64,000 nucleotides of DNA from Verrucomicrobiota bacterium (lineage in GTDB: Bacteria; Verrucomicrobiota; Verrucomicrobiia; Chthoniobacterales; UBA10450). Under the pieces are notes generated by a model, which saw only the letters and a list, made by a program, of their open reading frames with translations, was not told the origin of the DNA and did no database searches. The translations under genes were made by a program, and so were the position numbers. The stretch covers positions 1-64,000 of the forward strand of contig QHNH01000024.1 of assembly GCA_003218375.1 (NCBI GenBank), read 5' to 3'. Positions 29,465-39,398 of this stretch are shown here, piece by piece; within the stretch, counting starts at the first letter, position 1, and each line of letters starts with the position of its first letter.

Positions 29465-30617
29465 ATGAAGACGACACCCGCGCGCACTATTGCAGAACTG
29501 AAAGAACTTCGGGAACTCACCGGCGATGAAAATGGCGCGCAACGCGTCGCCTTCACCGAAACGTGGGCGAAAGCGCGAGCCTGGCTGCGCAAGAAACTCG
29601 AAATGTTCTGCCCGGACATTCGGACCGATGAAGCCGGGAATCTCTGGGCCACGTTGCGCGGTGAATCGGACAAGGCGCTCCTGATCGGCGGTCACATCGA
29701 TTCCGTTCCGAACGGCGGCTGGCTCGACGGCTGTCTCAATACACTTGCCGCGCTGGAAATTCTTCGCCGCGTCCATGCTCAATACAATGGCCGGCCGCCG
29801 GTGACCGTGCGGCTCGTCGATTGGGCGGATGAAGAAGGCGCGCGCTTTGGGAAAAGCCTTTTCGGATCTTCGGCCTGCTCCGGCCATCTCGATATGGACG
29901 AAGCGCGCACCCTCCGCGACAAACAAGGCGTCACCCTTCCCGCCGCGCTCGAACAACAGGGAATCGATTTCGAAAAGGTGAAGGATTGCGGCAAAGAGCT
30001 GGCGAACGCAGCCGCTTACCTGGAATTGCACATCGAGCAGGGGCCAGTCCTGCTCGATCTCGATCGGCCGCTCGGGACGGTGCTCGGGACTTTCGGCGTC
30101 GAGCGCCACGCCATCACCTTTCGCGGGCAGGCCGCGCATTCCGGCAGCACGCCGATGAACCGGCGCAAAGATGCCTTTCTCGCCGCGGCGAAGATGAGCC
30201 CGGAGATTTATCAGATCACCGAGCGCAACGGCGGCGTCTGCACCATCGGCTCCTGCACCACGAAACCCGGTATCGTCACCAGCGTCGTCGAAGAATGCCG
30301 GATCACGCTCGATCAACGCCATCTCGACGCCGCCGCCCTCGCCTGCATGTTGGCCGAAGCGAAAGCCGCCAGCGAACATTTCGCGAATTCGCGAACCCGG
30401 CGCCGATCCCTATCGCCTCCCTTCCGGCCCGCTCCACGACGCCGCCGAAGTCGCCCGCTCCGGCATCCCCACCATCATGATGTTCGTCCAAAGCCTCCAC
30501 GGCATTAGCCACAACAAAATCGAGGACACGAAGGAAGAGCACCTCGAATTGGCCGTGACCGCGTTCGACAAGCTCGCAGACAACGCTATTGGGTGGATTA
30601 GCGGTACATGCAGATGA
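29465..30617 (+). pseudogene. M20-type N-carbamoyl amidohydrolase (beta-ureidopropionase/allantoate amidohydrolase-like), internal deletion and frameshift
   Basis: The intact part has metal-ligand motifs GGHIDSVPNGGWLDG, WADEEGARF and LHIEQGP, typical of zinc hydrolases that release beta-alanine from N-carbamoyl-beta-alanine or act on related carbamoyl amino acids. After EHFAN (about 30385) the frame is lost. The expected C-terminus (GADPYRLPSGPLHDAAEV, MMFVQSLHGISHNK) continues in the +1 frame to TGA at 30615-30617. About 40 family residues are missing between the two parts, so this is a deletion plus frameshift, not one slipped base. The junction carries the perfect 16-base palindrome at 30380-30395. 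As read, the last metal-ligand His would be lost. First gene of the pyrimidine cluster; an assembly error is the main alternative. Confidence 0.8.
30380..30395. repeat. Perfect 16-base palindrome at the amidohydrolase deletion point
   Basis: TTCGCGAATTCGCGAA equals its own reverse complement. It lies exactly where the amidohydrolase frame fails, so it may be the deletion scar or the hairpin that promoted it. Confidence 0.6.
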
Positions 30618-30724
30618 TTGACAGGTGAGTGCCGAGATTTGCGGAGAGCGTGTGCGTCGGCTAGTAAGGCCCGAAGATGTTTCTTAGCGCTTCCAATCAT
30701 CGCAGAAAATCCTAGGTTCATGGC

Positions 30725-33700
30725 GTGACGCTGCCCGCGAACATACCCCCAGAGTTCGACGACGCGCTTGCGAGGTTCGCTGAGGATCTGTCAAACCGTT
30801 ACGCGTCACCAGTAGCAGGCGACCCGGAAGATCAACTGAAAGGGCCGATTCAGGATCTCCTCCGCGCCGCGCAACCGGACGTAATAACGAAGACGGAGTC
30901 TCGAATTTCTGGGGTTGGTCGCCCGGATATCGGAGTGGACAGATTGGGTGCGCTACGCGGCTACGTAGAACTGAAAGCTCCAGGACGCGGCGCGCGCGTT
31001 TCCGCGTACAAAGGACACGACCGAGAGCAGTGGCGCAAATTCAAGGATCTGCCAAACCTCCTCTACACTGATGGCTCGGAGTGGGCGCTGTACCGGCCCA
31101 ATAATGGTTCGTTTCCCGTAGTTAGATTTTCCGGTGACGTGATGCTCTACGGTAAGCAAGCAATCACGCGTGAAGATGGCGGCAGGCTTCACACACTGCT
31201 CGTAGAATTCCTGAATTGGGACCCGATTCCACCGAAGACTGCCCGCGAGCTCGCGGATACCCTCGCTCCCCTCTGCAGGCTGCTTCGCGATGACGTTGTA
31301 GAAGCATTACGCGACCGCAATACGAATCTGGCCTCTCTCGCTGACGTGTGGCGGCGAACGCTTTTTCCGGAAGCGGAAGATCATCAGTTTGCGGATGCGT
31401 ACGCGCAGACTTTGACATATGCGCTACTGCTCGCTCGGCTAAATGGCGAGACGCATTTAACCACCGCGTCTGCTGCCGATGCGCTCGATAGCGGACATCA
31501 TCTTCTTGCAGATGCGCTACGCAGTCTGACGCATCCACAGACCCGCAGAGAAATAGCTACGTCAGTGGACGTGCTGGAGCGCGTCATCGCAGCCGTTGAG
31601 CCGGTCCAGATTCAAGAACGCGGCGACCCGTGGCTCTATTTTTATGAGGATTTCTTAGCTGCTTACGACAAGAAGCTTCGCAACGACCGCGGCGTGTACT
31701 ACACGCCTTGGCAAGTCATCCAAGCACAGGTGAATCTAGGCGGCCAACTCTTGCAGGAACGCTTTCAAAAGCTGCTTACGTACGCTGACGATGGTGTGGT
31801 GTTTCTTGATCCAGCAGCGGGAACCGCAGCATATCCACTCGCTGCGATGCAGCACGGACTCGATGAAGCACGGAACCGATTTGGCGACGGCAATGCGCCG
31901 GCTCGAGCTAGCGAAGCTGCCCAGAACATCCACGCGTTCGAACTCCTCGTAGGTCCGTACGCCGTTGCGCACTTGCGGCTAACGAACTTTCTCAGGGAAG
32001 CCGGGGGGCAGGTGCCGGCTGATGGTGTTCATGTTTATCTTACTGACACGCTAGAAGCGCCTGACGCACCACCACGTACAACGGAGCTCTTTCCACAACG
32101 GACCCTTACCGAAGAGCATCTGCGCGCACAACGGGTGAAGCTATCGACACGTGTGCTCGTCTGCATGGGCAATCCCCCATACGATCGCGAGCAGCGGGAC
32201 CCCGCTGACGAAAATTTGGGACAGGCCAAAGGGGGATGGGTTCGATTCGGTGACCGTCGGGATACAGACGCCACTATCCTTACTGAAACTCGCGGCATCC
32301 TGAGCGACTTCATCGAGCCAGCCAAGGCCGCTGGCCAGCAAGTTCACGTCAAGAATCTTTACAATGACTATGTCTACTTCTGGCGGTGGGCGTTGTGGAA
32401 GGTGTTTGAGACGACACAGGAGCCCGGCGTTGTATCGTTTATCACGGCATCATCTTACCTTCGTGGCCCTGGGTTTGTCGGCATGCGCCAAAAGATGCGG
32501 GAACTCTTAGATGAGCTTTGGATTATTGACTTGGAAGGCGATCAACTCGGCGCCCGAAAGACAGAAAATGTATTTGCGATCCGAACGCCCGTCGCAATTG
32601 CGATTGGAATCCGAAATGGTCCGCCACAACCGACACAACCGGCGATTGTCCGGTACACGCGTTTGGAAGGGACCCGAGATGAAAAACTTGAGTCGCTGCG
32701 ACTCGTTCGGCGTTTCTCGGATCTTGAATGGCACGCATGCTTTAAAGGATGGATGCAGCCATTTCTTCCGACCAGCGATGCCGACTACTTTTCGTGGCCG
32801 CTGATCACCGACCTGTTTCCATGGCAACATTCGGGCTCACAGCTAAAACGGACGTGGCCGATTGGCGAAACAGTCGAGGTGCTAGAGCGAAGATGGCGTT
32901 CCTTGTTGGCGCTTCCCGCGGCAGAAAGAGCTCTTGCATTCAAGCCGTCACGTGACCGGCAAGCGGATCAGGAATATCCATCTTTATTTGGGGATGGTCG
33001 GCTTCCTCCAATCACCACGTTGCCGTCAGAGGCTCCAATGATCCGACCGGTCCCATACGGCTTCCGCAGCTTCGACCGCCAGTTCGTAATTCCTGATGGT
33101 CGGCTCGGGGATTTCTTTCGTCCACCGCTTTGGAATGTTTATAGCGACAGGCAAGTATATCTTACGAGTCTCTTAACTGGTGTGCTTGGTTCCGGTCCTG
33201 CGGCGACAGTCTCTGCCTTCGTTCCTGATTTGCATCATTTCCGCGGCTCGTTCGGCGGAAAGGATGCGGTTCCACTCTGGCGAGACGCAGGGGCATCCAA
33301 ACCGAACATTACGGGCGGGGTGTTGGATCTGTTAGCCGAAGCGTTTGGCAATTCTATAACGGCCGATGATCTATTCCACTATACGTACGCCCTTTTGGCT
33401 TCTAGAGCATTCGTTGAGACGTTTAGCGAAGAGCTAACTGTTCCTGGTCTGCACCTGCCAGTTACGCGCGATAAAGGGGTCTTTGACGATGCCGTGACGT
33501 TTGGTCGCGAGCTTGTATGGTTGCACACCTTTGGTGAACGCTTCGTTCCTGCGGGCGGAAGACGCGGCGAAATTCCGCAGGGAAAGGCAAGAAATACGAC
33601 ACCTATTCCCACGAGCACTGACGGCTATCCTAATGAGTTTCATTTTGATGAGCCGACAAGAACTCTTCATGTAGGGGCAGGATCGATAGCTCCTGTTACG

Positions 33701-34129
33701 CCCGAGATGTACGAATGGAGCATCTCTGGATTCAAAGTAGTTCAATCATGGCTGAGCTACCGGATGCGAAGCGGCTCAGGCAAAACTTCGTCTAATCTAG
33801 ATAAGATTCGTCCGGACTACTGGACCGCACAGATGACAGAAGAACTGTTGCGACTCCTGTGGATTCTCGAGCGGACCATCGAGCTACAAGACGGCCTTCA
33901 GACCCTTCTCAAACGAGTCTTTGCGAGTCCTCTGTTCCGTGCCTCCGATTTCCCGTCACCGACGGAAGCGGAGCGTAGACCCGATGGTATGGACGGCGAA
34001 GAACCTGAAGATGCGGAGCGGCCGTTACAAAAAAGCTTTTGGGATGAACGGCAACGCAACCTCTCTCGGTTGCCAGCTATTGAAGAAGACTCCGCAATCC
34101 TCCTGCGGGAGGAATCGGATGAGGCGTGA
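30725..34129 (+). CDS. Type ISP-like restriction-modification enzyme (nuclease + N6-adenine methyltransferase + target recognition)
   Basis: 1134 residues from a GTG at 30725. The N-terminal PD-(D/E)xK-like nuclease has GRPDIGVD with YVELKAPG (about residues 60-85). The gamma-type methyltransferase has motif I FLDPAAGTAAYPL (about 360) and motif IV GNPPYD (about 482). The C-terminal third matches the Type_ISP_C recognition region (RPVPYGFRSFDRQFV, HHFRGSFGG). No RecA-like helicase motifs are visible between nuclease and methyltransferase, so it is shorter than LlaBIII-type ISP enzymes and closer to a type IIG layout. It is expected to methylate and cut asymmetric sites. Codon use and GC differ from flanking genes, pointing to transfer into the pyrimidine cluster. 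Confidence 0.88.
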   Translation: MTLPANIPPEFDDALARFAEDLSNRYASPVAGDPEDQLKGPIQDLLRAAQPDVITKTESRISGVGRPDIGVDRLGALRGYVELKAPGRGARVSAYKGHDREQWRKFKDLPNLLYTDGSEWALYRPNNGSFPVVRFSGDVMLYGKQAITREDGGRLHTLLVEFLNWDPIPPKTARELADTLAPLCRLLRDDVVEALRDRNTNLASLADVWRRTLFPEAEDHQFADAYAQTLTYALLLARLNGETHLTTASAADALDSGHHLLADALRSLTHPQTRREIATSVDVLERVIAAVEPVQIQERGDPWLYFYEDFLAAYDKKLRNDRGVYYTPWQVIQAQVNLGGQLLQERFQKLLTYADDGVVFLDPAAGTAAYPLAAMQHGLDEARNRFGDGNAPARASEAAQNIHAFELLVGPYAVAHLRLTNFLREAGGQVPADGVHVYLTDTLEAPDAPPRTTELFPQRTLTEEHLRAQRVKLSTRVLVCMGNPPYDREQRDPADENLGQAKGGWVRFGDRRDTDATILTETRGILSDFIEPAKAAGQQVHVKNLYNDYVYFWRWALWKVFETTQEPGVVSFITASSYLRGPGFVGMRQKMRELLDELWIIDLEGDQLGARKTENVFAIRTPVAIAIGIRNGPPQPTQPAIVRYTRLEGTRDEKLESLRLVRRFSDLEWHACFKGWMQPFLPTSDADYFSWPLITDLFPWQHSGSQLKRTWPIGETVEVLERRWRSLLALPAAERALAFKPSRDRQADQEYPSLFGDGRLPPITTLPSEAPMIRPVPYGFRSFDRQFVIPDGRLGDFFRPPLWNVYSDRQVYLTSLLTGVLGSGPAATVSAFVPDLHHFRGSFGGKDAVPLWRDAGASKPNITGGVLDLLAEAFGNSITADDLFHYTYALLASRAFVETFSEELTVPGLHLPVTRDKGVFDDAVTFGRELVWLHTFGERFVPAGGRRGEIPQGKARNTTPIPTSTDGYPNEFHFDEPTRTLHVGAGSIAPVTPEMYEWSISGFKVVQSWLSYRMRSGSGKTSSNLDKIRPDYWTAQMTEELLRLLWILERTIELQDGLQTLLKRVFASPLFRASDFPSPTEAERRPDGMDGEEPEDAERPLQKSFWDERQRNLSRLPAIEEDSAILLREESDEA

Positions 34130-34135
34130 GACTGC

Positions 34136-34573
34136 GTGGTCTATTTTGACACAAATTATATTCTAAAGTGCTACTTGAACGAGGAGAACAGCGCAGATGT
34201 TCTCGCACTCGCACAAGGATTCCCGGCGGGAGAGATCGCCTGCTGCCGCCATGGGCGCGCTGAATGGCATACAGGAATTCACCGCGCCATCTACAAGAAC
34301 CTATTAAGTCCCGCGGATGCTGCACTGCTCTATGCGCAAATGAACCAAGACGAGCAGAACGGCCTGTGGAATTGGCTGCCGATCGATGATGCGCTCGTTG
34401 ATATAGTTTGCGCAGAAATGCTGATCTTCGACCACGGCCTTAATCTGAGCGGCATGGACGCGATTCATCTCGCATGCGCGCGGCACCACGGTATCACGGA
34501 CGTGTACACGCACGACGACGAGATGCTCGTAGCGGCTCCTCACTTTGCGCTAGTCGGCCATGACGTGCTCTGA
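34136..34573 (+). CDS. PIN-domain ribonuclease (VapC-like), no adjacent antitoxin
   Basis: 145 residues from a GTG, 6 bases after the restriction enzyme stop, so translation is probably coupled. PIN acidic residues are visible: D in VYFDTNYILK, E in RAEWHTG, D in SGMDAIHLA and the D pair in YTHDDEML. PIN proteins of this kind cut RNA, often tRNA or rRNA. VapC genes normally follow a small antitoxin gene. Here the upstream partner is the large restriction-modification protein and no RHH, AbrB or Phd-like gene is seen. It may be an abortive-infection arm of the restriction system or an orphan toxin. Confidence 0.8.
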   Translation: MVYFDTNYILKCYLNEENSADVLALAQGFPAGEIACCRHGRAEWHTGIHRAIYKNLLSPADAALLYAQMNQDEQNGLWNWLPIDDALVDIVCAEMLIFDHGLNLSGMDAIHLACARHHGITDVYTHDDEMLVAAPHFALVGHDVL

Positions 34574-34688
34574 GCGGCCGGCGCGCGACAGCATCGAACC
34601 AGAGGTCTTGGCGGACGCAAGAATTTCATTCTGGAAAACGTGGGGGACGCTATTGTAATCTGACCTCAGCTCATTAGAGGAGAATTAT

Positions 34689-35828
34689 ATGCCGACACTC
34701 GCTACCACTGTTGATGGTCTTAAGCTGCCGAATCCATTTGTCATCGGATCGGGGCCGCCAGGAACGAATCTCAATGTCATCACGCGCGCCTTCCGCGAGG
34801 GCTGGGGCGCGGTCATCGCGAAGACCGTCAGCCTCGATGCCTCGAAGGTGGTCAACGTCGCGCCGCGTTATGCGAAACTGCACGCGAACGACCCGAAGGA
34901 CGTGATCGGCTGGGAAAACATCGAATTGATCAGCGATCGCAAGTTCGAGATTTGGCTGGATGAATTCAAGAAGTGCAAAGACCAGTTCCCGGACGGAATC
35001 CTGATCGCGTCGATCATGGAGGAATACAATCACGACGCGTGGACGGAAATCGTGGAGCGTTGCCAGGACGCGGGGATCGACTCGTTCGAGCTGAATTTCT
35101 CCTGCCCGCATGGATTGCCCGAGCGAAAAATGGGCGCGGCCATGGGCGAGAACCCGGAGATCGTCGAGGAGGTGGTCGGCTGGGTGATGGCGGCGGCGAA
35201 GAAACCGGTCTGGGCGAAGATGACGCCGAACGTGACCCGCATTACCGATCCAAGCCGGGCGGCGTTCCGCGGCGGCTGCCAGGGAGTGAGCGCGATCAAC
35301 ACCATCCGCAGCGTGATGGGAGTGAACCTCGATACCCTGCGGCCGGAGCCGACGGTGGAGGGCTTCACCACGCCCGGCGGTTATTCTTGCAGGGCCGTTC
35401 GGCCAATCGCGCTGCGGATGGTGATGGAAATCGCGACCATGATCCGGCGGGAATTTCCTGGTCGCACCCTTTCCGCCATTGGCGGAATCGAGAGCGGGGG
35501 CGACGCCGCGCAGTTCATCCTCCTGGGGGGTGACACGACGCAGGTTTGCACGGGCGTGATGAAGTTTGGCTACGAATGCGTGAAGCGCATGTGCGACGAA
35601 CTGCTCGCCTTCATGGAGAAGCACAAGTTCGAGACCATCGAAGATTTCAAAGGGAAGAGTCTCGATTATTTCACGACCCACGCGGAGCTGGTCCGGATGC
35701 AAGGGGAACGCAAAGCCAAGGACAAAGCCGCCGCCGAAGAAGCCGCCGCCAAGAAAATGGTGCGCGCCGACGATCAGTGGAGCGGCGATGAATTCGTGAA
35801 GCAATCGGATGCATTAGCTAGAAGCTAA
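34689..35828 (+). CDS. preA: Dihydropyrimidine dehydrogenase PreA-type subunit lacking the ferredoxin domain
   Basis: 379 residues with a strong Shine-Dalgarno (GAGGAGAA) 6 bases before the ATG. The FMN barrel shows NPFVIGSGPPGTN near the start, NFSCPHGLPERKMG (C139), MTPNVTRI, and SAINTIRSVMG followed by GGIESGGDAAQF. It would reduce uracil or thymine to the 5,6-dihydro form. E. coli PreA (~411 residues) ends in two 4Fe-4S clusters that take electrons from PreT. This protein ends in an Ala/Lys-rich helix with no Cys clusters, and no preT is in the window. The stop lies within the first bases of the heptamer element at 35829. Centre of the pyrimidine cluster. Confidence 0.9.
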   Translation: MPTLATTVDGLKLPNPFVIGSGPPGTNLNVITRAFREGWGAVIAKTVSLDASKVVNVAPRYAKLHANDPKDVIGWENIELISDRKFEIWLDEFKKCKDQFPDGILIASIMEEYNHDAWTEIVERCQDAGIDSFELNFSCPHGLPERKMGAAMGENPEIVEEVVGWVMAAAKKPVWAKMTPNVTRITDPSRAAFRGGCQGVSAINTIRSVMGVNLDTLRPEPTVEGFTTPGGYSCRAVRPIALRMVMEIATMIRREFPGRTLSAIGGIESGGDAAQFILLGGDTTQVCTGVMKFGYECVKRMCDELLAFMEKHKFETIEDFKGKSLDYFTTHAELVRMQGERKAKDKAAAEEAAAKKMVRADDQWSGDEFVKQSDALARS

Positions 35829-35900
35829 TGAAGCTCCAAACACCAAGCTCCAAGCTCCAGAGAAGCTCCAAATCGCAAGCTCCAAACAAGCACTCAAAAT
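35829..35900. repeat. Heptamer element A1, left arm (AGCTCCA type)
   Basis: Tandem heptamers AGCTCCA, AACACCA and so on: four units, the 4-base break GAGA, then AGCTCCA, AATCGCA and AGCTCCA. The right arm, 36317-36376, is inverted. Between them lies the four-helix-bundle gene. Confidence 0.9.
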
Positions 35901-35929
35901 ATTCCGCCGACGAGCGCACGTCGCGGGTG

Positions 35930-36304
35930 ATGGAGACGCCGAATAGCAACGGCAATGGGGCGAGCAGGCATCCGTTCGACTTGGAGGAGCGAACCGCATT
36001 GTTCGGCGAGGCGATTGTGCAATTCGCCAAGAAAATCCCACGCAGTCCGGCAAATGATCGGCTCGTTGGGCAGCTCGTCGGCTGCGGCACGAGCGTGGGA
36101 GCGAATTATTGTGAAGCGAACGAACGGGTATCAAAAAAGGATTTCCGCAACACTATCGGACGGTGCGTAAAAGAAGCGAAGGAAACGAAATACTTCCTTC
36201 GCCTGATTGCCGCCGCTGAGCCGCGACTAGCCGAAGAGGCCCGCGCCTTGTATCGTGAAGCCAAAGAGCTCCACCTGATCTTCGCCAGCATGTATCGTCA
36301 ATGA
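35930..36304 (+). CDS. Four-helix-bundle protein (S23 / 23S rRNA intervening-sequence, bAvd-like)
   Basis: 124 residues from the ATG at 35930. The longer frame to 35828 merely translates the heptamer repeat. Family hallmarks are present: HPFDLEERTALFGEAI, VGQLVGCGTSVGANYCEAN, then a helical second half (FRNTIGRCVKEAKETKYFL). Members of this family occur inside rRNA intervening sequences, in diversity-generating retroelements (Avd) and as stand-alone genes of unknown function. No reverse transcriptase or variable repeat is seen here. It is enclosed by inverted AGCTCCA heptamer arms, as if carried by the repeat, within the pyrimidine cluster between preA and mmsA. Confidence 0.88.
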   Translation: METPNSNGNGASRHPFDLEERTALFGEAIVQFAKKIPRSPANDRLVGQLVGCGTSVGANYCEANERVSKKDFRNTIGRCVKEAKETKYFLRLIAAAEPRLAEEARALYREAKELHLIFASMYRQ

Positions 36305-36316
36305 CACCGCGCCACG

Positions 36317-36376
36317 ATTTGAGGTTTGATGCTTGGAGCTTCTCTGGAGCTTGGTGCTTGGAGCTTGGAGCTTTTT
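36317..36376. repeat. Heptamer element A1, right arm (inverted)
   Basis: In reverse complement: AGCTCCA twice, AGCACCA, AGCTCCA, then GAGA, then AGCTCCA, AGCATCA and AACCTCA. This is the same 4x7 + 4 + 3x7 order as the left arm. The arm ends 2 bases before the mmsA ATG at 36378, so it covers that gene's ribosome-binding region. Confidence 0.9.
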
Positions 36377-36377
36377 A

Positions 36378-37859
36378 ATGATCGCCTGCCCGATCCTCAT
36401 CGACGGTGAATGGCGAACGCCGTCCGGCGTCGCTACTTCTCCGGTCTTCAATCCATCACGCGGCGAGACGATCGCGGAAGTGCCAATGATCGGCGCGGAG
36501 ATCGTGAACGAAGCGGTCGAGTCAGCCGCGGCGGCATTCCCGGCCTGGCGCGAGACACCGCCGGTGGAACGGGCACGCGTCTTCTTTCGTTATCGTCAGC
36601 TCGTCGAGGAAAACTTCGATCGGATTTGCCAGAGTGTTACGCGCGAGCACGGCAAGACGCTGGCCGAAGCGCGCGGCAGCGTTTATCGCGGGATCGAGAA
36701 CATCGAGTACGCCTGCGGAGTTCCGACGCTTCTGATGGGCGACATGCTCGAGAATCTCGCGCGCAGTGTCGATTGCGAGACGCTGCTTCAGCCGCTCGGG
36801 GTTTGCGTCGGGATCACGCCCTTCAATTTTCCAGCGATGGTCCCGATGTGGATGTTCCCGCTCGCGATCGCCTGCGGAAATACCTTCGTCTTGAAGCCGA
36901 GCGAGAAAGTTCCGCTGACGGTTGTGATGGTCGTCGAGCTTCTGGAAAAGGCCGGGCTGCCCAAAGGCGTGCTCAATCTGGTCCACGGCGGCCGCGAATG
37001 CGTGGACGCATTGCTGACCCATCCGAAAGTGAAAGCGATTTCGTTCGTCGGGTCGTCGCCCGTCGCAAAATACATTTTCGAAACCGGCACGCGGCACGGC
37101 AAACGGGTCCAGGCCAACGGCGGCGCGAAGAACTACATCGTGGTCATGCCTGATGCCGATGTGTCAAAGACCGTTGAAGCCCTCTCGACCGCTGCGTTTG
37201 GATGCGCCGGCGAACGTTGCATGGCGGGATCGACTGCGATCGCTGTCGGCGCAGCCGCGGATCGCGTTCTGCCTTCGCTTGTCCAAGCCGCGCGCGCGAT
37301 TCGGGTGGGACCAACTGACGTTGAGATGCAACCCGACATGGGCCCGGTCATTACCGCCCAACATCGTGATCGCGTCGCGAGCCTTGTGGCCACGGGAGAA
37401 AAGGAAGGGGCGAAGGTTATTTGCGATGGGCGCGGCGCACGCATTGAAGGCGCGCCGAATGGTTTCTACATGGGCGCCACGATCGTCGACCAGGTGCGCG
37501 ATGAGATGACAATCGCGCGCGAAGAAGTCTTCGGCCCGGTCCTCAACGTTATGCGGATGGACGACCTCGATCACGCCATCGAGGCCGCAAACAAATCAGC
37601 CTTCGGCAACGGCGCCGCGATTTTCACTCACTCCGGCAAAGCCGCGCGTGAATTCAAGCATCGCGTCAAAGCCGGGATGATCGGCATCAACGTCGGCGTC
37701 CCCGCCACGATGGCGATGTTCCCCTTCACCGGCTGGGACGAATCCTTCTACGGCGATCTGCACATCCAAGGGAAAGAAGGCGTGCAGTTTTACACCCAGC
37801 AGAAGGTGGTGACGACGCGGTGGTTTGGGGATGGGGTTGGCGATGTGTGGAAGAAATGA
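36378..37859 (+). CDS. mmsA: CoA-acylating methylmalonate/malonate-semialdehyde dehydrogenase
   Basis: 493 residues from the ATG at 36378; the in-frame start at 36333 translates the heptamer arm. Aldehyde-dehydrogenase features: EHGKTLAEARG, TPFNFPAMVPMWMFPLAIA and GCAGERCMAGS with the catalytic Cys. The last motif is characteristic of the MmsA group. It oxidises methylmalonate semialdehyde to propionyl-CoA or malonate semialdehyde to acetyl-CoA with NAD and CoA. In this cluster it would take the product of the class III aminotransferase at 42673, finishing thymine or uracil breakdown. Confidence 0.93.
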   Translation: MIACPILIDGEWRTPSGVATSPVFNPSRGETIAEVPMIGAEIVNEAVESAAAAFPAWRETPPVERARVFFRYRQLVEENFDRICQSVTREHGKTLAEARGSVYRGIENIEYACGVPTLLMGDMLENLARSVDCETLLQPLGVCVGITPFNFPAMVPMWMFPLAIACGNTFVLKPSEKVPLTVVMVVELLEKAGLPKGVLNLVHGGRECVDALLTHPKVKAISFVGSSPVAKYIFETGTRHGKRVQANGGAKNYIVVMPDADVSKTVEALSTAAFGCAGERCMAGSTAIAVGAAADRVLPSLVQAARAIRVGPTDVEMQPDMGPVITAQHRDRVASLVATGEKEGAKVICDGRGARIEGAPNGFYMGATIVDQVRDEMTIAREEVFGPVLNVMRMDDLDHAIEAANKSAFGNGAAIFTHSGKAAREFKHRVKAGMIGINVGVPATMAMFPFTGWDESFYGDLHIQGKEGVQFYTQQKVVTTRWFGDGVGDVWKK

Positions 37860-37880
37860 CGCGACAAGTTCCAATCGCAT

Positions 37881-38010
37881 GAAGCACCAAGCACCAAGCA
37901 CCAAGCTCCAGAGAAACATCAAGCATCAAACACCAATGCAGCGTCGCGGCCTTTGGAGCTTCGTTGTTTGGAGCTTCTCTGGTGCTTGGTGCTTGGTGCT
38001 TGGTGCTTTT
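37881..38010. repeat. Heptamer element A2 (AGCACCA type, empty)
   Basis: The left arm (37881-37935) has three AGCACCA, AGCTCCA, GAGA, AACATCA, AGCATCA and AACACCA. The right arm (about 37951-38010) in reverse complement has four AGCACCA, GAGA, AGCTCCA, AACAACG and AGCTCCA. The loop is only ~15 bases (gcagcgtcgcggcc). It fills the gap between mmsA and the hydantoinase and ends 6 bases before its ATG. Confidence 0.92.
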
Positions 38011-38015
38011 CCCCG

Positions 38016-39398
38016 ATGAGTTTGCTCATAAAGCAGGGCGAGATCGTCACCGGCACTGAGCACTACATCGGGGACATCTTCTGCGAGCACGAACGGATCA
38101 CGCACATCGACCGGAATATCGATGCGCCGGCGGGCACGGAAGTGATCAACGCGAGCGGGAAATATGTTTTCCCCGGGTTCATCGATCCGCATGTCCACAT
38201 TTATCTGCCGTTCATGGGGACGTTCTCGAAGGACACTTACGAGACGGCGAGCAAGGCGGCGCTGGTCGGTGGAACAACGACGTTGATTGAGATGGTTTGT
38301 CCTTCGCGTGACATGAGCGCCGCGGAAGGGTTCCGGCTTTGGCAGGAACAGGCGGACGAGAAATCCGCGTGTGATTACACCTATCACATGGGCGTGACGC
38401 GTTTCGACGAGGAGAACGCGAAACAGCTCCGCGAGATCGTGGCCACGGGCATCAGTTCGTTTAAGATTTTCCTGGCTTACAAAGGGGCATTCGGGATCGA
38501 CGACGCGGAGCTCTATCACACGTTGAAGCTCGCGAAGGAACTGGGCGTGATCGTGACCGCGCATTGCGAGAATGAAACTCTCGTGGCGGAGCGCCAGAAA
38601 GAATTGCTCGCCGCCGGAAAAACCGGTCCGGGACAGCATTACGAAAGCCGGCCACCGCGGGTGGAAGCCGAAGGCGTTCATCACTTGATGACCTTCGCGG
38701 AGCTGACCGGCGCGCACGTTTACATCGTGCACCTGAGCTGCGACGAAGCCTTGCGGGAAGCGCTCGCGGCCCGGCACCGCGGCGTAAGCGTCTCGATCGA
38801 GACCCTGATTCAATATCTGGTGCTGGATAAAACGGATGCCGAGCGGCCCGGGTTCGAAGGCGCCAAGTTCGTCATGTCGCCGCCGCTGCGCGACAAGAGC
38901 AATCAGCCGGTGCTTTGGAATGGGTTGAGCAGCGGCGAGATTCAAACCGTCGCAACCGATCACGCCCCGTTCGATTTCAAAACCCAGAAGCCAATGGGCC
39001 GCGACGATTTTACCAAGATCCCCAACGGCATTCCGTCACTCGAAGACCGGGTGAATCTGCTTTTCACGCACGGCGTCAAAACCGGAAAGCTCGATCTGCA
39101 CACGTTTGTCAACGTCGCGAGCACAAACGCGGCGAAGACGTTCGGATTGTTCCCGCGCAAGGGCGCCATCCAGATCGGCGCCGATGCCGACCTGGTCGTC
39201 TACGATCCGGAATATCGCGGAAAAATTTCTGCGAAGACGCAATTGATGAATGTCGATTACAGCGCGTTCGAGGGCTGGGAGATCGAAGGACGGCCGGACC
39301 TGGTGACGGTGCGCGGTGAAGTCGCGGTGCGCGATGGAAAATTTGTCGGCACCATCGGCCGCGGCCGAATGCTCCAGCGCGAGCCCGCGCACTTCTGA
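38016..39398 (+). CDS. Dihydropyrimidinase / D-hydantoinase
   Basis: 460 residues from the ATG at 38016; the extension to 37953 is translated repeat. Cyclic amidohydrolase metal ligands are in place: H-x-H in GFIDPHVHIY, the carbamylated Lys in SSFKIFLAYKG, His in VTAHCEN, His in YIVHLSCDEA and Asp in VATDHAPFD. It hydrolyses 5,6-dihydropyrimidines (or hydantoins) to N-carbamoyl-beta-amino acids. It is the ring-opening step between PreA and the N-carbamoyl amidohydrolase at 29465. The neighbourhood supports pyrimidine over purine (allantoin) use. Confidence 0.93.
   Translation: MSLLIKQGEIVTGTEHYIGDIFCEHERITHIDRNIDAPAGTEVINASGKYVFPGFIDPHVHIYLPFMGTFSKDTYETASKAALVGGTTTLIEMVCPSRDMSAAEGFRLWQEQADEKSACDYTYHMGVTRFDEENAKQLREIVATGISSFKIFLAYKGAFGIDDAELYHTLKLAKELGVIVTAHCENETLVAERQKELLAAGKTGPGQHYESRPPRVEAEGVHHLMTFAELTGAHVYIVHLSCDEALREALAARHRGVSVSIETLIQYLVLDKTDAERPGFEGAKFVMSPPLRDKSNQPVLWNGLSSGEIQTVATDHAPFDFKTQKPMGRDDFTKIPNGIPSLEDRVNLLFTHGVKTGKLDLHTFVNVASTNAAKTFGLFPRKGAIQIGADADLVVYDPEYRGKISAKTQLMNVDYSAFEGWEIEGRPDLVTVRGEVAVRDGKFVGTIGRGRMLQREPAHF

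Follow-up and report, generated by a model that had tools for sequence, protein, structure and literature searches.

The analyzed window, a 64,000-nucleotide stretch of a Verrucomicrobiota bacterium genome (GCA_003218375.1, contig QHNH01000024.1, positions 1 to 64,000), encodes a single-chain restriction-methylation enzyme whose last 31 residues (SFWDERQRNLSRLPAIEEDSAILLREESDEA) resemble the toxin-binding tail of an antitoxin, and whose gene lies directly upstream of a gene for a PIN-domain nuclease of the type that such antitoxins accompany. Judged from sequence alone, the enzyme itself probably holds the putative RNA-cutting toxin in check and may release it if the enzyme is lost or disabled. 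A preliminary description of the locus had reported a helicase-less, type ISP-like restriction enzyme followed after six bases by an orphan PIN ribonuclease, and this observation was confirmed: the coordinates, the strand and the 6-bp gap are right, and both genes are in the same reading frame. Its statement that no antitoxin is visible holds for a separate gene, but an antitoxin-type tail is present at the 3' end of the large gene. The features of the locus are listed in Table 1.

Table 1. Features of the restriction enzyme-PIN locus (window positions)
Position	Strand	Feature	Basis
30599..34687	+	Inserted segment holding only the two genes, between an amidohydrolase gene and preA	Flanks adjacent in two same-genus genomes; lower G+C than the flanks
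30725..34129	+	Type IIG-like restriction-methylation enzyme gene, 1134 aa, GTG start, TGA stop, with C-terminal antitoxin-like tail	ORF; Pfam; PADLOC; 65-row alignment; AF2 model; DrdV as best fold match
30926..30976	+	PD-(D/E)XK nuclease residues D68...E82-x-K84	Alignments of homologous enzymes
31808..31825	+	Methyltransferase motif I (DPAAGT, aa 362-367)	65-row alignment
32171..32182	+	Methyltransferase motif IV (NPPY, aa 483-486)	65-row alignment
32810..33856	+	Type_ISP_C target-recognition region (aa 696-1044)	Pfam
33983..34033	+	Acidic linker where homologous enzymes end (aa about 1087-1103)	Alignments of homologous enzymes
34034..34126	+	Antitoxin-like C-terminal tail (aa 1104-1134)	Match to tails of small antitoxins preceding PIN homologues; absent from the other enzyme homologues; predicted disordered with one helix
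34136..34573	+	PIN-domain nuclease (VapC-like) gene, 145 aa, GTG start, same frame as the upstream gene	ORF; Pfam; catalytic acids D5, E43, D108 and D127 kept

Taken alone, the large protein is an ordinary restriction-methylation enzyme. It matched Pfam Type_ISP_C (1.1e-65) and, weakly, N6_Mtase, but no helicase family, whereas PADLOC assigned it to the type IIG restriction enzyme-methyltransferases over aa 31-1099 (1131.7 bits). The nuclease residues and the methylase motifs DPAxG (aa 362-366) and NPPY were invariant or nearly so in a 65-row alignment. A PD-(D/E)XK nuclease, an N6-adenine methylase and a target-recognition domain are present in one chain. Its best solved relative was DrdV, which matched over the whole length, while the alignment to the type ISP enzymes LlaGI and LlaBIII covered only their part behind the helicase. 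Since it lacks the SF2 helicase/translocase found in LlaGI-like enzymes between nuclease and methylase, the protein is better termed type IIG (DrdV-like) than type ISP-like. Such enzymes are common (207 plasmid records and 569 candidates in our searches), and the absence of a helicase is therefore not remarkable. The small protein, taken alone, is also ordinary; it had only a PIN match in Pfam (2.6e-8) and retained four acidic residues that were invariant in 24 homologues.

To learn how this PIN family is organized elsewhere, we collected about 130 homologous loci from the phylum, class and order of the window's organism. In nearly all of them, a frame ending in a small Phd- or RHH-type antitoxin of 75-130 aa overlapped or abutted the PIN start. 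The N-terminal halves of these antitoxins were Phd/YefM-like in some cases and FitA-like ribbon-helix-helix in others, but the C-terminal tails were alike (R...LP...DS..(I/V)SEDRD): an Arg-containing stretch, often LP, followed by DS-x-x-x-(I/V)-S-E-(D/E)-R-D. The window was the only locus among them with a large protein in this place. Long upstream frames at three other PIN loci (L033, L237 and L250) turned out to be ordinary small antitoxins with an open frame in front. Searches for PIN homologues in plasmids, phages and viral contigs found none.

We next examined the junction between the two genes. Homologous enzymes end around window residue 1086-1105 in a short, variable acidic end, and the tail was absent from 80 genome homologues (47-61% identity, out of hundreds of relatives), from 8 plasmid homologues and from others of the phylum. 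In contrast, it aligned with the antitoxin tails, the closest being that of the antitoxin at PIN locus L151 (TFWQQRERQLASIATVKEDSTAYVSEDRDGR; about 10 of 31 residues identical). The last 40 aa of the enzyme scored 71 (BLOSUM62, local alignment) against the L151 tail and 51.6 on average over the top five. None of 2000 shuffles and none of 89 homologous enzyme C termini reached these scores, and of 2010 ORF C termini only 4 did, all four being those antitoxins themselves. When the full L151 antitoxin was searched against six frames of the organism's own 3.96-Mb genome, a single match was returned, at window positions 34016-34120, i.e., the tail in frame; the modest E value (0.02) fits a 35-residue match, but its position is telling. 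A second antitoxin (from PIN locus L034) used in the same way found nothing. Moreover, across 114 loci PIN similarity and tail similarity rose together (Spearman 0.55; shuffled tails, mean -0.03 and maximum 0.33), and the tree placed the window PIN with L151 and other Phd-type loci, in a supported 14-row clade (95/94) holding L151, L149, L150, L032, L033 and L038. The shared ancestry of tail and antitoxin is therefore well supported, although the match is short and a general profile built from 84 antitoxin tails did not score the enzyme tail, which is recognized only by the nearest, L151-type subfamily. At the DNA level, similarity of the tail to antitoxin genes was too weak to date the fusion.

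No other antitoxin was found in the insert. In the two same-genus genomes (represented by loci L212 and L213), the amidohydrolase gene and preA are adjacent, with window homology stopping at 30598 and resuming at 34688. This empty site shows that both genes were acquired with no third gene. Thus, the small antitoxin gene with a DNA-binding domain that accompanies the relatives of this PIN is missing here, whereas a sequence matching its toxin-binding tail is encoded directly upstream. No PIN paralogue was detected in the genome at E≤0.001. If the PIN is toxic, the antidote must be in the enzyme or be unrelated to this family.

The locus is best explained as a toxin-antitoxin module with a rebuilt antitoxin, in which the N-terminal DNA-binding half (Phd-type in the nearest relatives) is gone and the C-terminal toxin-binding tail is fused, through an acidic linker, to the end of a complete type IIG enzyme; we put the probability of this reading at roughly 0.7. 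In this view, the PIN is not an orphan. The enzyme would be translated first, its tail would wrap the PIN nuclease made immediately afterwards and keep it silent, and loss, degradation or blocking of the enzyme would free the PIN RNase and arrest the cell. This would make the restriction gene addictive and could back it up against phage anti-restriction. An AF2 model of the enzyme (mean pLDDT, 83) showed a folded core and a predicted disordered tail (aa 1090-1134, pLDDT below 50) with one helix at 1102-1114, as expected of a free antitoxin tail, whereas a single-sequence prediction of the read-through tail-PIN stretch was uninformative (pLDDT, 41). A bulky unrelated carrier can act in this way, as an isolated Phd-C element fused to SUMO neutralizes its toxin (PMC10440598). 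However, the nearly invariant arginine of the antitoxin tail (SEDRD) is not at its place in the window (REESD), and the PIN has S at consensus R105 and a long branch (1.31), which may mean adaptation or decay; furthermore, the fusion was seen in one genome only. The sequence data establish that both genes are intact, that the tail is homologous to antitoxin tails and missing from the other enzyme homologues, that PIN relatives use a separate antitoxin with that tail, that no other such antitoxin was found in this genome and that the insert holds only these two genes. In contrast, binding, neutralization, toxicity of the PIN, site-specific methylation and cleavage by the enzyme and the trigger of release (gene loss or phage inhibition) are inferred. 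The full scenario, in which a restriction enzyme took over the antitoxin role and guards itself with an RNase that is released when phage inhibitors or gene loss remove the enzyme, remains tentative and somewhat less likely than not.

The interpretation offered in the preliminary description was thus supported only in part. Its guess that the large protein does the restraining is supported by sequence, but "suicide back-up if restriction fails" remains an inference. The co-occurrence of this PIN family with helicase-less Type_ISP_C proteins, which had been named as a check, was not found: no PIN homologue was present near 80 close enzyme homologues from GTDB loci, 8 plasmid ones or those sampled in the phylum, and a general PIN-ISP operon family was rejected. 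PIN homologues do mostly occur with a small antitoxin elsewhere, as its refuting condition required, but not "only by chance here," because that antitoxin's tail is fused to the enzyme.

Among alternative explanations, a relic of a gene accident is unlikely but survives best. The restriction gene may have landed in or recombined with a phd-PIN operon and left an antitoxin stub that no longer neutralizes, with an inactive or only weakly active PIN and no function for the pairing. Occurrence in a single genome, the changed tail arginine and PIN R105 and the long PIN branch are in line with this view, whereas the intact reading frames, the retained catalytic acids and enzyme motifs, the in-frame fusion and the location of both genes together in an insert absent from same-genus relatives argue against it. 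Less likely still, the fusion works the other way as well, and the PIN, tethered by the tail, is a working partner, i.e., an RNase delivered to or regulated by the enzyme on DNA, rather than a held-back toxin; tail and PIN could form a stable complex and the enzyme's DNA binding would position the PIN (by inference only), but no precedent for this arrangement was found, and relatives of the PIN are nearly all in toxin-antitoxin arrangement. Chance resemblance of the tail, with the PIN being an orphan or neutralized by another antitoxin elsewhere or by nothing, is very improbable given the shuffle, homologue and ORF controls, the single genome-wide hit, the covariation of PIN and tail and the lack of a PIN paralogue, despite the short match and its absence from the general profile search.

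Among the closest known systems is PrrC-EcoprrI, in which an anticodon nuclease is kept latent by a type Ic R-M complex and released when restriction is inhibited (PMC3506569, PMC12707154). The present locus most likely works like it without being a member: PrrC is an ABC-NTPase nuclease held by an Hsd complex without a borrowed antitoxin, whereas here a 145-aa PIN protein is paired with a recognizable antitoxin tail on a single-chain type IIG enzyme. Compared with Phd/YefM-PIN (VapBC-like) type II modules, the PIN likewise lies directly downstream of a protein ending in the family's tail, but the DNA-binding domain is replaced by a 1100-aa restriction-methylation enzyme. Compared with DrdV and type IIG/IIL single-chain enzymes and with LlaGI/LlaBIII, the nuclease-methylase-target recognition architecture is shared, but the 31-aa tail is extra and, unlike in LlaGI/LlaBIII, there is no helicase. 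In Panacea-type modular antitoxins (hyperpromiscuous network), the neutralizing Phd-C element is likewise separable and works on an unrelated carrier (PMC10440598); here, the natural carrier is a restriction enzyme. We found no report of an R-M enzyme carrying an antitoxin tail in the literature searched, which does not prove that none exists. It was proposed in 2012 (PMC3506569) that suicide nucleases near immunity genes lack antitoxins because immunity proteins themselves restrain them, with PrrC as the demonstrated case. Here, the mechanism would be written in the sequence, which makes the idea testable and suggests other defense proteins in front of "orphan" toxins as places to look for grafted antitoxin tails.

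The two-gene insert has gone into a reductive pyrimidine-degradation cluster formed by preA, CoA-acylating methylmalonate-semialdehyde dehydrogenase and dihydropyrimidinase (window 34689-39398). The upstream amidohydrolase gene (hydantoinase/carbamoylase family; window 29465-30618) is frameshifted: relative to L213 it lacks about 92 bp near 30384-30393, and its C-terminal part continues in another frame. A 23S rRNA-intervening-sequence-protein gene (window 35828-36304) lies between preA and the aldehyde dehydrogenase gene; L212 and L213 appear to lack this stretch, so it looks like a second insertion in the same operon. Elsewhere in the organism's own genome (loci L029/L216, contig C2, 70361-73504), a second, about 38% identical helicase-less Type_ISP_C protein contains an in-frame TGA or frameshift and is probably a broken copy, with no PIN next to it in the stretch examined. 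Finally, similar short repeated peptides or sequences (LLWSLVLGAWSF-like frames, GGAGCTTGGAGC-like DNA) recur between genes of the pyrimidine cluster (window 36333-36370 and 37870-37990), looking like a dispersed intergenic repeat.
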